Assembly: GCA_021299375.1 (NCBI GenBank)
Contig: JAJTGR010000032.1
Span: forward strand, 1 to 36,932
DNA length: 36,932 bases
Origin: Gemmatimonadota bacterium
GTDB lineage: Bacteria > Gemmatimonadota > Gemmatimonadetes > Gemmatimonadales > Gemmatimonadaceae
Direction of reading: 5' to 3'
Under the pieces are notes generated by a model that saw nothing but the letters and a program-made list of their open reading frames with translations, was not told where the DNA came from and did not search any database. Position 1 is the first letter of the stretch. Every line of letters starts with the position of its first letter. Positions 27,942 through 33,200 of the stretch are shown here, piece after piece. The position numbers were made by a program, and so were the translations under genes.

Positions 27942-27977
27942 GCGGTTCGCGGGTCACGCCGTCGAGACGGTACTGAA

Positions 27978-28007
27978 GCGCCCGTTCCGCTTTGGCGGGA
28001 CGGGCGC
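27978..28007 (+). terminator. Rho-independent-type terminator of the acyl-CoA dehydrogenase gene
   Basis: GCGCCCGTTCCGC (27978-27990) pairs with GCGGGACGGGCGC (27995-28007): a 13-bp stem with one T-G pair and a TTTG loop, followed by GTTGCCTT. It lies 36 bases past the stop codon and separates this gene from the convergent lipoprotein operon. Confidence 0.75.
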
Positions 28008-28038
28008 GTTGCCTTGACAGCAATCCTGGGCGTCGGAT

Positions 28039-28662
28039 CTAGGGAACGATGCTGTCTCTCAAGGCCCGGCTTCCCCGACGCAGCACCTCGACGACGGGGT
28101 CGCGCCCAACCACTATGCGATCGGCTGAAAGAAGCGCCGGCACCACGGTCACCCCAGCGTTGTCGGATGCGGCTTCGTGTCGTGCGACAACATCCACAAC
28201 GTCCGGGCGCTTCAGGCACTCGAGAAATGCGGTGGTGTCGGCGCCGGAAGCGCCGGCGGTCCGCGTGAGTGGTCTGTTGGGGTCGGCAAGGTGATCAAGG
28301 CGTACACTCACATACCGCTGTAGCACGCCCTGGCGGTGAGCGCATTCCAGCGCTGCGCCTTCGATCCTCGCCGCGCGGTCACGTTTCGTCTGCGGCCGAT
28401 GAACAAATGCCGTAGTCGAGGTGCCGGACGGAGCAGCCAGCGCTGCCTCGAGAGCGACCAGCGAATTCGGACAGGTCGCGTCCACAAAGAGGACCGATCG
28501 CGGCGCATCGGACCTCAGGGCGGTATACAGCGACGGGGTGTGCAGGAACTGCACCGCAGCGGCCTCTGAGACCTGAACGGTGTCGAGATTCGAGCCTTGC
28601 GCGCAGCCGGCCGCCAACGTCACCAGCCAGCACGCGGAACGCCAGCTGCTACCGCCGGGCAT
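28039..28662 (-). CDS. Lipoprotein with thioredoxin-like fold (CPNS active-site position)
   Basis: A 207-residue lipoprotein: signal peptide with lipobox L-A-A-G-C20. The mature part fits a DsbA/Thioredoxin_4-like fold: strand VLFVDATCPNS with a C-P-N-S motif (Cys64) at the active-site position, a helical insert containing two further Cys (ECAHRQG and FLECLKRPD), and a cis-Pro-like strand VTVVPALLSADRIVVG. The second active-site Cys is Ser here, so it may act as a monothiol isomerase/reductase or a peroxidase-like trap instead of a classical disulfide oxidase. The ATG at 28662 overlaps the end of the propeller gene by 14 bases, so the two are coupled. I infer that it handles thiols of the Cys-rich protein encoded upstream. 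Confidence 0.65.
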   Translation of the reverse strand: MPGGSSWRSACWLVTLAAGCAQGSNLDTVQVSEAAAVQFLHTPSLYTALRSDAPRSVLFVDATCPNSLVALEAALAAPSGTSTTAFVHRPQTKRDRAARIEGAALECAHRQGVLQRYVSVRLDHLADPNRPLTRTAGASGADTTAFLECLKRPDVVDVVARHEAASDNAGVTVVPALLSADRIVVGRDPVVEVLRRGSRALRDSIVP

Positions 28663-29644
28663 AGGCAGACAGTATCGAGCCGCGTTCCGTGCTTCTGAGG
28701 ACCACGAGCAAACCCGTGGCCACGTCAATCTGATACGCATCATCGTGGGGAACTGACAGGGACTTGATGCGACGCCCAGTCCCCAGGTCGTAGACATCCA
28801 CCATCGCACCGGGGCCCGCATACATCGAGCCCCGCAGGACAAACAGCGAGTCACCGAACACCGCTGCATCTTTCGCTGCGCTTGGAGCGGACACGGCCCG
28901 AGGATACGGGCCACTACGGTCGATCCGAGGGGCCGGATACGGGTCCGCATACCGTCGATACTCCCTATCCGACTCAGCGGAAGCCGTGACCTCAAAGAAG
29001 TAGTCTCCCTTCGGCTGCCACACGATGCAACGCCCCTCCCGCGAGCGCGCGAATCTCGCTTGCCGTAATCCGAGCACCTCGTTGTACACCGGCACAGGCC
29101 AGACGATGGAGTCGATCACTGCGGGAGGGGCCTCCTTGCGGAGCCGAACAATCATCATGTCGCCAAAACGTATGGCGATGTAGGAGCCAGTCGCTTCGCG
29201 GCAATAGCTGTTGAGCTGACCTTCGAGTGGCAGCGTGCCCGCGGGTGCGTCGAGGGCAGGCCCACTGAAGACGCTGAGGCGGCCCTGTCGAGTGTCGGCC
29301 ACGCCGAAGCGCGCTGGCCCAGCATCAACGAGTTCATCTGGGACCAGGAACTCTCCCGGACCTGCGCCCCGGCGTCCCGCGATCCACAGTGAATCGCCCG
29401 TGCGGAGATCGCGAGCGTGAACGGTGGCATCAGCGCCGTCGAGGAGCAGAACCCTGTCCCCCTGCACGAGCAGTTCGTCGAAATCATGACCGCGATCGTC
29501 GCGGTCGAAACGAACGGTCCACATTTCGGTGGCAGTTTCGACAGAGGCGCCGTGTTCGGTGACGACGGCAGGTTGTCTCTCACAGGCGGGAAGCGACAGC
29601 CCCAAGGTGATGACGACAGCCCAACGATAGGAGTGACGATGCAT
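28649..29644 (-). CDS. Six-bladed beta-propeller lipoprotein
   Basis: A 331-residue lipoprotein (lipobox L-P-A-C21). The body is beta-rich with repeats typical of six-bladed (NHL/TolB-like, BF4221-type) propellers: LLLDGADATVHARDLRTGDSL followed by the hallmark GRRGAGPGEF, later MVDVYDLGTGRRIKSLSVP and a closing ILSAYARR strand. Such lipoproteins are common in Bacteroidota and Gemmatimonadota and are mostly of unknown function; some sit in clusters with small secreted Cys-containing (NVEALA-type) proteins. It follows the Cys-rich gene by about 9 bases and overlaps the thioredoxin-fold gene. GC is near 58-60%. The ribosome-binding site is poorly spaced (GGAG 3 bases before ATG). Confidence 0.78.
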   Translation of the reverse strand: MHRHSYRWAVVITLGLSLPACERQPAVVTEHGASVETATEMWTVRFDRDDRGHDFDELLVQGDRVLLLDGADATVHARDLRTGDSLWIAGRRGAGPGEFLVPDELVDAGPARFGVADTRQGRLSVFSGPALDAPAGTLPLEGQLNSYCREATGSYIAIRFGDMMIVRLRKEAPPAVIDSIVWPVPVYNEVLGLRQARFARSREGRCIVWQPKGDYFFEVTASAESDREYRRYADPYPAPRIDRSGPYPRAVSAPSAAKDAAVFGDSLFVLRGSMYAGPGAMVDVYDLGTGRRIKSLSVPHDDAYQIDVATGLLVVLRSTERGSILSAYARR

Positions 29645-29653
29645 TGCTCCAGA

Positions 29654-29974
29654 CTACGGCGTCTTCGGGGTGGGGTAGCGCGTGACCTCCGTGCATTCCC
29701 GCTGACGGGTCACGGGATTGGTGGTGCAACGGCAGCTGACGCACTGCGTCAGGGCATCGCAGGAGAAACAACCACTGCCGCACCAGGCCGGCATCGGCGG
29801 GCAGGTCTGCTGACATCCCTCCCCACCGCCTTCCCCGCCGCCGCACTCTCCATCACAGGGCAGCTCCTGGGCGGTCAACATGCGACCGCCATCAACACCG
29901 TCGTTCAATACCGGACTGATCGCCACGACAGCAAGGAGGCACAGCGCGAGCAGGGCTCTCCGCTTGATGGTCAT
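29654..29974 (-). CDS. Small secreted cysteine-rich protein
   Basis: A 106-residue protein. The N-terminal signal peptide (KRRALLALCLLAVVA...) is probably cut near LTA-QE; the ~70-residue mature part then holds 11 Cys, starting PCDGECGGGEGGGEGC and continuing CPPMPAWCGSGCFSC and CVSCRC. Spacing is irregular, without an obvious known knot or zinc-ribbon pattern. The start at 29974 is supported by GAGG 5 bases upstream. I do not recognise the family. The odd number of Cys, the export signal and the downstream propeller and thioredoxin-fold lipoproteins suggest an exported disulfide-rich product needing redox handling (inference). It resembles Bacteroidota NVEALA-type genes in context, but the motif itself is not present. 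Confidence 0.65.
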   Translation of the reverse strand: MTIKRRALLALCLLAVVAISPVLNDGVDGGRMLTAQELPCDGECGGGEGGGEGCQQTCPPMPAWCGSGCFSCDALTQCVSCRCTTNPVTRQRECTEVTRYPTPKTP

Positions 29975-30157
29975 CGTCACCTCGGCAGTTGGAGAAAACC
30001 GGGATTGGTCGAGCAACTCGACATGGCGAAGCTCCCCCCCCGGGAAAACGCAAGACTCCGAGCGCTGGGTACGGCTGGGAGCACTGCTCGTCGGTGGGAC
30101 GAGCCGCGTGCCGTCACATCGGGTCGAAGAGTTCGGTCCATCGACGGGATTCGCGCC

Positions 30158-30185
30158 TTGCCACCCCCCAGCGAACCCGTAATTT
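30158..30185 (+). promoter_or_regulatory. Candidate promoter of the SusC/SusD operon
   Basis: TTGCCA (30158-30163) and TAATTT (30180-30185), 16-base spacer, about 53 bases before the SusC-like ATG. The 263-base gap 29975-30237 must also hold the promoter of the divergent Cys-rich operon, which I could not place confidently. Confidence 0.35.
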
Positions 30186-30237
30186 CTGCCCACCATTTCC
30201 CGCCACACGTGTAATCCCCTCTGTCAGGAGAAGGCGC

Positions 30238-33200
30238 ATGCTGCCATCTGTCTTCCGCGACGTCGCGGGCCGGATGCGGTCTCCGTGGACCGCAGTCCTG
30301 CTCGCCGTCGCGGTACAGCTCACCCCCACTGCCGCGGTCGCCCAGGCGACCGGCACCCTTGCCGGCACGGTCGTCAATGAACGGAGCGGGGCGCCCATCA
30401 GCGACGCCCAGATCGCCGTCGAGGGGCGCAACATGGGCACCACCACCGATGCCGCCGGACGGTTCCGCTTTGCCGGGCTGACCGGCTCCGGCGAGGTCCA
30501 GCTCACTGTGCGCCGAATCGGTTTCGTCCCCAAGACGGTCGCGGCCACCATCGGCGCCGCCAGCGTCCGCATCGCCCTGACCGAGCGGGCCATGGAGCTC
30601 ACGTCGCTGGTCGTGACGGGCACCGCCGGCGTGGCCGAGAAGCGGGCCATCGGCAACGCCGTCACCACCGTGAACGCGGCCGAAGTCGTGGCCACCCAGC
30701 CGGTGAACTCGTTTCAGGAGCTGCTCAACGGACGCGCCGCCGGCGTGAGCATCGTGGCCAGCTCGGGGCAGGTGGGCACGGGCTCGCGCATCCGCGTGCG
30801 CGGCGCCAGTTCGCTCTCGCTCTCCAACGATCCGCTGATCTACGTGGACGGCGTGCGCGTCGACAACACGCAGGCCTCCGGGCCGAGCAATCAGGGGTTC
30901 GGCTCGGCCTCGATCTCGCGCTGGAACGACTTCAACCCCGATGACATCGAAAGCATCGAAGTCATCAAGGGCCCGGCCGCCGCCACGCTCTATGGCACCG
31001 AAGCCTCCAACGGCGTCATCCAGATCATCACCAAGAAGGGCGCGGCGGGCCGCCCGGTGTGGAACGTGACCGCGCGCGGCGGTTCCAGCTGGGTACCCAA
31101 CTGGCTCAATCGCTTCGAGGACAACTACGGCACCGTCCCGCGCGCCGGTAGCGCCACGGCGCTCGACACGGTGAGCATCTCCACACGCCAGCTCAACGAC
31201 TCGCTCAACGCACGCTTCGGCAACGATGTCTTCACCAGCGGGCAGCTGCAGGACATCCAGATGTCGGTCTCCGGTGGCACCAACGCCGTGCGCTACTACG
31301 TGGGTGGGGGGTACGAGGAGAACCAGGGCGCCGAACGCGTCAATCGCCTCCGTCGCACCAATCTGCGCGTCAACTTGCAGGCGAACCCCTCGCCGAGCGT
31401 CGACCTGCAGACGAGCCTCGGCTACACCACGGGGCGCACGTACCTGCCGTTCGAGTCCGGTGGTGGTGGAGCGGTCTGGGGTACCCTGTTCTCGTCTCCG
31501 TCCTTTCTCTTCGGCGGCGTCGGGGTGAATTCACGCACGCCGGGCAATCCGCAGCTGGGCTTCCGTTCGGGGCCGCCCAACGCCTACTACGACGCGTACG
31601 ACGTGTTCCAGGACGCCGATCGCTTCACGGGCAGCTTCCAGTTCACCAATCGCCCGACTAAGTGGCTCAACCACCGGCTCATCGTGGGCCTCGACCGGCT
31701 GGCCGAGAACAACGAGGACCGGACGCCGCGTAACGACCTCATCGCCGCCACCTTCGCGGCGTTCGCCGGGTCGGGGCTGCCGACCGCCGGCGCGATCTCG
31801 GCCAGTACGCGCGATGTGACGCTCACGTCGTACGACTACGTCGCCAATGCCGAATTCCAGCCGTCGTCGTCGCTCAAGAGCGTCACGTCGGTTGGCGGGC
31901 AGATCTATCTGCGGCAGACGCGCTTCCGCTCCATCAGCGGCACGACGTTCCCCGCCGTGGGGCTCACCTCCATCTCATCGGCAGCCATCCGCAACGTGGG
32001 CGCCGACGAGCTGACGCAGAACAACACCGTGGGCGCGTTCATCCAGCAGCAGCTCGTCTGGAACGATCGGCTCTTCGTCACGGGAGCGGTGCGTACCGAC
32101 GACAACTCGGCCTTCGGCACGAACTTCGACGCCGTCACGTATCCCAAGCTCAGCGCCTCGTGGGTGGTGAGCGAGGAGCCGTCGCTCCCCATTCCGGCGT
32201 TCGTGAATCAGCTGCGCCTGCGCGCCGCCTACGGCGCGTCGGGGCTCCAGCCGGGCGCCTTCGACGCCATTCGCACCTACACGGCGGCGGGCGGTTTTCT
32301 CACGCCGTCGTCGGCCGGTAACGCCGACCTGGGTCCGGAGCGTAGCACCGAGCTCGAGCTGGGGTTCGACGCCGGGCTGTGGAATGACCGTGTGGGGCTG
32401 GAGGTCACGTACTTCGGCGGCTCCACCCGTGACGCCATTCTGTCGCGCCAGGCCCCGCCGTCGAACGGCTTCCCCGGCTTGCAGCTGTTCAACGCCGGTC
32501 AGGTGGATCGGCAGGGGCTCGAGTGGGTCGTGCGCGGCACGCCGCTGCGCCGCGACAACCTGTCGCTCGACCTGACGCTGAGCGGCTCGACGACCGCGTA
32601 CAACATCGCGTCGCTCGGTGGCTCGACCGACTTCGTATCGCTGTCCAGCAACATCGGGCACCGCGTGGGCTTCGCGCCGGGGGCCTGGTGGGACCGCCGC
32701 ATCGTGAGCGCCGACTACGACGCCACGACCCGCCGCGCCACGAACGTGTTGTGCGACAACGGCGCAGGCGGCACCATTGCCTGCGCGCAGGCGCCGCGCG
32801 TCTTCCTCGGCAACTCGGTGCCCATGCAGGAAGGCTCGTTCTCGGCCGGTCTCACCATGTTCAAGAACCTCCGCGTGAACGCGTTCGTCGACTGGCGCGG
32901 CGGCTACAAGAAGCTCGACGGCAACTACCGCGTGCGCTGCGGTGCCTTCGTGCTCTGCCGTGAGCTGTACTACCCCGACGAGGTCACCGACAGGGCGCAG
33001 CTGGCCGCGGTGCAGGCCGGCACGGCGTTCACGCATCACCTCATTCATGACGCCAGCTTCGCGCGCTTCCGCGAGCTGTCTGCCACGTACACGCTGCCCG
33101 GCACCTTCGCGCGCCGCGTGGGGGCCACGCGCGCCTCGATCACCGTGGCCGGCCGCAACCTCGGCCTCTGGACGAACTTCCCGGGCATCGAACCGGAGGC

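Follow-up and report, generated by a model that had tools for sequence, protein, structure and literature searches.

We describe a cassette of three adjacent genes, here called the trio, in a 36,932-nucleotide stretch of DNA (the window; contig JAJTGR010000032.1 of assembly GCA_021299375.1) from a bacterium of the family Gemmatimonadaceae. The genes encode a small, cysteine-rich protein with a Sec-type export signal (gene cysP), a predicted six-bladed beta-propeller lipoprotein and a lipoprotein that, to judge from its sequence, has a DsbA-type thioredoxin fold. All three lie on the minus strand and fill the interval between an acyl-CoA dehydrogenase gene and a divergent SusC-type receptor gene. 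We hold with moderate confidence that the trio is a mobile cassette for the export and dedicated oxidative folding of a disulfide-rich small protein, with the propeller as the surface partner of this peptide. Gemmatimonadota are little-studied soil and water bacteria that carry many small cassettes of this type, of which the window presents one unusual and apparently mobile example.

Conservation of the trio and of the cysP peptide

Homologs of cysP were found, at E-values of 1.7e-8 or better, in five of the 179 genomes available for the family: the window genome (G000), Gemmatimonas sp. UKL202c (G057) and three others (G050, G060 and G067). In every one of these genomes the propeller gene and the DsbA-like gene are located directly downstream of cysP and in identical order, and the trio is present in 5 of the 30 genomes of the genus. 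A profile built from the five cysP sequences and run against 395 genomes of the phylum again recovered those five, plus one weak match (G240, E 5.4e-4). This match has an internal stop, and its surroundings (L134) hold one propeller-like match and neither a peptide gene nor a DsbA-like gene. We treated it as a chance similarity, as we did 14 weak cysP matches in genomes of the family (E 3e-4 to 0.01) that were unconfirmed by the profile search. A preliminary description of this DNA had proposed that the three genes form an export unit centred on a disulfide-rich peptide, and the co-occurrence of all three genes wherever cysP is found supports a conserved unit of this kind. The same description had reasoned that the unit would be doubtful if cysP had no homologs beside propeller and thioredoxin genes or if the arrangement were not conserved in sister species; on both counts the genomes came out in its favour.

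Some departures from the simple three-gene arrangement were also seen. G067 holds an extra propeller-DsbA pair, indicative of duplication. Upstream of the G060 trio there is a second trio-type propeller (L048:13111-14180, minus strand) that is broken by an internal stop, with signs of duplication and decay. Two small proteins that are alike, neither of which has a Pfam match, are encoded near two of the cassettes (L048:12502-12876, minus strand, and L059:4309-4758, plus strand); they are possibly DNA-binding and could be regulators.

The cysP product begins with a hydrophobic signal and a spacer, followed by LTA-QELPC and then the Cys-rich domain. Judged from this arrangement, the signal is probably cut before Gln36 (at the hyphen), which would release a 71-residue Cys-rich domain. 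The protein has 12 Cys in total, 11 of them after the signal, in good agreement with the mature protein of about 70 residues and 11 Cys that had been described. Eight of the Cys are invariant across the five species at identities down to 32%, and because the frame is conserved with these residues in place, we consider it more than a chance reading frame. No Pfam or NCBIfam family matches the protein. A search of PDB sequences with the cysP profile, at E-values up to 10, returned only two entries, both for the pacifastin-type inhibitor SGPI-2 (E 0.78 and 1.7, with five Cys aligned). This result provides a lead only, to a secreted protease inhibitor with a pacifastin-like CxxCxC...CT core. We judge such a function very unlikely indeed, given that E-values near 1 are at chance level, that Pfam offers no such domain at E-values up to 10, that the sixth Cys of the pacifastin motif is missing from cysP, and that the other cassette peptides inspected do not have this pattern.

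The DsbA-like and propeller partners

The DsbA-like protein of the window matches the Pfam family DSBA at E 3.3e-4 (20.9 bits, which is under the curated cut-off of 25.6). At E 0.001, DSBA is matched by 16 of 21 relatives and Thioredoxin_4 by 15 of 21, and a profile of the 21 relatives matches DsbA/BdbD-type structures in the PDB with a best E-value of 3e-28. Residues D61, C64, C107, C149 and P175 are invariant in the window protein and 20 relatives. The fold, the conserved Pro at the cis-Pro position and a second conserved Cys pair are shared with DsbA and Thioredoxin_4 proteins. These comparisons indicate that the third gene product is a protein with a DsbA-type thioredoxin fold, and so the earlier assignment to a thioredoxin-like lipoprotein holds but can be made more exact.

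What differs from DsbA and Thioredoxin_4 is the active site. In all six trio copies the resolving Cys is replaced by Ser, giving the CxxS motifs CPNS, CQNS, CPNS, CPFS, CPAS and CPGS, whereas 56 of 58 non-trio copies have CxxC according to one script; of the other two, one was unmatched and one had a doubtful motif assignment. Thioredoxin-fold proteins without a second active-site Cys typically form mixed disulfides or carry out isomerization rather than oxidation. Because it lacks this second Cys, the trio protein is expected to be a holder, an isomerase or a retention factor. The protein is lipoprotein-like in the window genome, G057, G060 and probably G050, and the two copies in G067 appear to be membrane-anchored, assignments that were made partly by eye. 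Just upstream of the trio in G060 lies a CxxC DsbA-like gene (L048, 11641-12327), which could supply oxidation there.

An AlphaFold2 model of the window propeller has a mean predicted local distance difference test score (pLDDT) of 84.6 and a predicted template modelling score (pTM) of 0.83. Its best structural matches are six-bladed NHL propellers, with Z-scores from 24 down to 20 and about 255-260 residues aligned. The comparison with Brat (1q7f) gives Z 24.1 with a root-mean-square deviation (rmsd) of 3.0 over 258 residues, and the model also resembles the designed protein Pizza6 and, with Z 19.0 and an rmsd of 3.6 over 290 residues, the propeller BVU_1028 from Bacteroides. On the strength of this model, the window protein is a six-bladed beta-propeller lipoprotein, although a fold held in common carries no information on function. 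The lipobox is present in all six trio propeller copies. For the window propeller, no Pfam family scores above its cut-off, and PF17170 ('6-bladed beta-propeller') gives no match at E 0.001; this last family is matched by 10 of 24 wider propeller relatives. Carriage of the trio on plasmids was considered and set aside, the propeller having no match in plasmids.

A wider family of cassettes in Gemmatimonadota

The window trio is one variant of a far wider cassette type, a breadth that the preliminary description had not noticed, and this type is present in four Gemmatimonadota families. Loci were chosen by the presence of a DsbA-like gene or a propeller gene alone, and were then checked for small open reading frames (ORFs). 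To count as peptide-like, an ORF had to lie no more than 700 bases away on the same strand, begin with a signal-like stretch and contain five or more Cys beyond residue 28. Peptide-like ORFs were present at 14 of 16 propeller-seeded loci and, by script, at 9 of 13 DsbA-seeded loci (10 of 13 once the propeller start in L053 is placed correctly), compared with 0 of 122 control genes (250-450 amino acids, all over 3 kb away from DsbA-like and propeller genes). The 13 DsbA-seeded loci derive from 15 non-trio DsbA-like places, from which G128 and G032 were left out as having no DsbA-like or propeller gene by iterated profile. A phylum-wide set was assembled from the best 39 DsbA-like loci among the matches listed and not already examined (families f1, f2, f5 and f6). 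Here a peptide-like ORF occurs beside the DsbA-like or propeller gene at 25 of the best 39 listed loci, and beside the DsbA-like gene itself at 22. The corresponding count for the opposite strand is 2 of 39, and for lower-scoring DsbA-like loci (20 of the last 21 among the matches listed) it is 2 of 20.

Several individual loci are informative. At L054 (869-2788, minus strand), a single 640-residue ORF fuses a DsbA-like domain (residues 34-227) to a propeller (from residue 290), and an exported ORF with nine Cys is located directly upstream. The window genome itself carries a second peptide-propeller-DsbA cassette in the same order (L204), in which the active-site motif is CPAC, as well as a cassette of peptide family II (L080) and two peptide-propeller pairs (L205 and L207). 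At L119 (G158:C42), numerous propeller genes form a 20 kb array in which several small Cys-rich ORFs and a DsbA-like gene are interspersed.

The sequences of the peptide-like ORFs differ from locus to locus, such that 83 cassette peptides fall into 32 BLAST clusters (formed partly via signal sequences). Pfam and NCBIfam scans of 29 of these peptides yielded nothing better than E 0.0085, and a defensin-like Pfam family was touched by only one of the 29 (E 0.0088). Four peptides from different families (L230, L237, L240 and L257) have a recurring CC...CC...C...C pattern, suggestive of a compact six-Cys scaffold.

An even number of Cys residues is found in 79 of the 83 peptides; with each cluster represented by one peptide, the count is 28 of 32 (binomial p 1e-5). 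An odd number is seen in the window cysP, in two further peptides and in an antisense frame of the window that is certainly not a gene. This parity bears on a redox or metal role, in which the Cys-rich proteins would bind metal or buffer periplasmic thiols and the DsbA-like protein would keep them in the right state. Such a role would accord with the dense Cys clusters of cysP, such as CxxCxC, and with the copper-resistance proteins that are also found among the PDB matches of the DsbA profile. However, even Cys numbers fit paired disulfides better than metal sites, and the Cys spacing is not conserved between families, so we regard this explanation as unlikely.

Peptide family II, whose members have six Cys, was found in 21 of 395 genomes, 19 of these 21 being within the genus. 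A propeller gene is located just downstream of the peptide in 20 of 21 cases, and the exception (L229) is at a contig end. Among close pairs, the ratio of nonsynonymous to synonymous substitution rates (dN/dS) ranges from 0.03 to 0.45 in the peptide and from 0.14 to 0.22 in the propeller, which indicates that these are real genes under purifying selection, evolving at a similar pace. Diversifying selection was looked for in the same pairs and was not found.

Apparent mobility of the trio and its neighbouring genes

The five trios occupy five different neighbourhoods. When the 30 genomes of the genus were searched at the DNA level with the window interval, both flanks were found on one contig in seven relatives among the matches listed. 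In six of them (G062, G045, G061, G043, G067 and G057), the flank matches are 299-388 bp apart, compared with about 2.4 kb in the window, and closer alignment revealed no trio sequence in the relatives' flank intervals. G057 and G067 have a trio-free acyl-CoA dehydrogenase-SusC pair and carry the trio at another site. In the seventh relative (G056), the flanks are separated by 1.4 kb, which is occupied by other sequence. This G056 interval (L201, G056:C28:18800-20900) contains about 1 kb of different extra sequence, and the gap may be a favoured insertion site.

Either the trio was inserted at this position or it was lost repeatedly in the relatives, and we favour insertion because of the deviating composition. 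The GC content of the window trio is 64.4% (cysP 66.0, propeller 63.1 and DsbA-like 66.2), as opposed to 67.0% for the acyl-CoA dehydrogenase gene and 68.5% for the SusC gene. The difference is clearer at third codon positions, where GC is 0.69-0.77 in the trio and 0.87-0.94 in the flanks. Trio GC in the other four genomes is 52-58.5%. The preliminary description was right to place the trio below its flanks, although its figure of 58-60% was too low. A search for repeats or mobile-element ends at the insertion revealed only short repeats that are probably due to chance.

The right-hand neighbour was correctly recognized at the outset as a divergent SusC/SusD pair: a TonB-dependent receptor gene with a CarboxypepD_reg domain, followed by a SusD-family gene. 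It had also been suggested that the trio might be an export unit that uses this pore. Adjacency in the window is all that speaks for this partnership, and it does so for this one site. In six relatives SusC follows acyl-CoA dehydrogenase without any trio, and the other four trios have other neighbours, from which we conclude that SusC/SusD is a bystander. As a conserved linkage the partnership is refuted, and the accidental local use of the pore that is left is scarcely credible.

Proposed function and its weighing

In our proposal, the cysP product would be exported via Sec and probably cut before Gln36. The core disulfides of the released domain would then form in the periplasm, aided by the DsbA-type protein of the same cassette, a partner that usually has CxxC in such cassettes. 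In the trio clade, the CxxS partner would more likely hold, isomerize or retain the peptide through a mixed disulfide formed by a single cysteine, with net oxidation left to a housekeeping oxidant. The propeller lipoprotein may act as the cognate envelope partner that binds the peptide for display, release or self-protection, as co-inheritance and one gene fusion suggest. Finally, the folded peptide would act extracellularly; our best guess, held with little confidence, is a bacteriocin-like contact with other microbes. We base this proposal on the presence of the whole trio in each cysP-bearing genome, the eight invariant Cys, the enrichment of peptide-like ORFs relative to control genes, the even Cys numbers, the L054 fusion, the purifying selection on family II and the L204 cassette.

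Several observations weigh against this proposal. A CxxS protein is unable to perform the net oxidation of DsbA, the cassette has no ABC (ATP-binding cassette) exporter or recognizable immunity gene, the Cys count of the window peptide, 11, is odd, and the AlphaFold2 model of this peptide is unusable (pLDDT 47.7). One genome (G051) has a trio-type propeller alone (L118:7204-8193, plus strand), accompanied by neither a peptide gene nor a DsbA-like gene. The criteria for a peptide-like ORF are crude, being founded on a hydrophobic N-terminus and a Cys count, and they let through at least one antisense false positive among the 83 peptides (window 29155-29583). No qualifying ORF was seen at 14 of the best 39 listed DsbA-like loci, and remote propeller loci in four genomes have a peptide-like ORF in only 4 of 21 cases (L081, which is the same as L202, being counted here and not among the 16 propeller-seeded loci). 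This last value, together with that for lower-scoring DsbA-like loci, confines the peptide link to certain DsbA and propeller clades. The dN/dS values well below 1 among close relatives speak against an arms race in family II.

In its sharpest form, the proposal makes the peptide a bacteriocin that is secreted, assigns the DsbA-like protein to it as a dedicated oxidoreductase comparable to PedC or BdbA, and gives the propeller the role of immunity or receptor protein. There is precedent in pediocin PA-1/PedC, sublancin/BdbA and BlpGst, in which a small Cys-containing secreted peptide is likewise encoded with a thioredoxin-fold helper. According to the portion of the source available, co-expression of the operon-encoded PedC lowered the minimal inhibitory concentration of recombinant pediocin from 1.2 to 0.4 μM, and sublancin and Blp bacteriocins are reportedly similar (PMC4919988). 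The patchy distribution of the trio within the genus, its different sites, its deviating composition and the diversity of the peptides would also suit a bacteriocin. In contrast, pediocin as presented in that portion has its own ABC exporter and no propeller (PMC4919988), whereas here we find a Sec signal, a propeller lipoprotein and, in the trio clade, CxxS in place of the CxxC of known helpers. There is no transporter gene inside the trio and no dedicated exporter was found in the cluster, whose neighbours differ in the five genomes, which leaves Sec as the only exporter. PADLOC gave no match, and family II is subject to purifying selection and changes roughly as fast as its propeller. Of the uses considered, a bacteriocin function is the likeliest, yet we consider it somewhat doubtful.

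Relation to known systems and significance

In Bacteroidota, small NVEALA proteins (PF14055) are paired with six-bladed propeller lipoproteins, and the preliminary description viewed the trio as a possible counterpart of this pairing. The layout is indeed alike, in that a small exported protein adjoins a six-bladed propeller in all five trio genomes, and the PF17170 matches among wider propellers and the resemblance of the model to BVU_1028 point in the same direction. However, PF14055 has no match in the window genome at E 0.1, in 29 peptides at E 0.01 or in eight peptides at E 10, and the Gemmatimonadota cassette has a DsbA-like partner. Membership in NVEALA is thus unsupported, and a Gemmatimonadota branch of the Bacteroidota system appears very unlikely. 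A functional parallel with the Bacteroidota pairs is possible.

A Dsb pathway is also connected with a beta-propeller in Helicobacter, whose HpDsbI is described as a membrane redox protein with a propeller (PMC4597128). There the propeller sits in the membrane redox partner, whereas in the cassettes it is found as a lipoprotein or, at L054, fused to the DsbA-like domain. Bacterial defensins resemble the cassette peptides as small, secreted, disulfide-rich bacterial peptides, and the available portion of their description does not mention Gemmatimonadota, propellers or thioredoxin (PMC11561630). No published description of such cassettes, and nothing on NVEALA or DUF5128, was found in the literature searched, a body that had most subscription journals and all preprints outside its scope. 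A combination of propeller, Gemmatimonadota and cysteine-rich as search terms retrieved, by title, only PilY1 proteins. Secreted disulfide-rich peptides with helper oxidoreductases and six-bladed propeller lipoproteins are known kinds, and it is their combination and the CxxS form that seem new.

We tentatively suggest, as something that may well prove wrong, that these cassettes constitute a hitherto undescribed, phylum-wide peptide secretion system. It would deliver varied, Sec-exported and fully disulfide-paired small proteins, each with its own DsbA-like enzyme and propeller lipoprotein, and its mobile variants would use a CxxS carrier to hold or display the peptide covalently. If this is true, Gemmatimonadota, from which few natural products are known, have a large repertoire of genes for secreted peptides rich in disulfides. 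Genome-mining tools would miss these peptides because they have plain Sec signals and no family match, and the DsbA-like and propeller genes provide a sequence handle by which to find them. The CxxS clade beside its CxxC relatives offers a natural comparison of a DsbA turning into a holder or isomerase. Furthermore, six-bladed propeller lipoproteins include many orphans, and for some of these a role as partners of small secreted peptides becomes a testable proposition.

Layout of the window trio

The features of the locus are listed in Table 1. No sigma-70-like promoter was found in the region upstream of the trio, and no conserved element was seen when the five trio upstream regions were aligned, that of the window not being convincingly alignable with the other four.

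Table 1. Coordinates of the trio and associated regions in the window
Feature	Position	Strand	Description
cysP	29654-29974	-	106 amino acids; coding 29657-29974 plus stop; small Sec-exported Cys-rich protein
Propeller lipoprotein gene	28649-29644	-	331 amino acids; lipobox LPAC (C21); GRRGAGPGEF
DsbA-like lipoprotein gene	28039-28662	-	207 amino acids; lipobox LAAGC (C20); CPNS (C64); conserved C107, C149, P175
Region upstream of trio	29975-30170	-	Right-hand limit estimated from weak SusC-side similarity at 30215-30268
Stretch without counterpart in the relatives' acyl-CoA dehydrogenase-SusC interval	27946-30214	.	Inserted here or lost there; ends approximate

The three gene positions agree with those first reported, as do the GRRGAGPGEF and CPNS motifs, the 9-base gap between the cysP stop and the propeller start, and the 14-base overlap between the propeller and DsbA-like genes. 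An AGG sequence is located shortly 5' of the cysP ATG.

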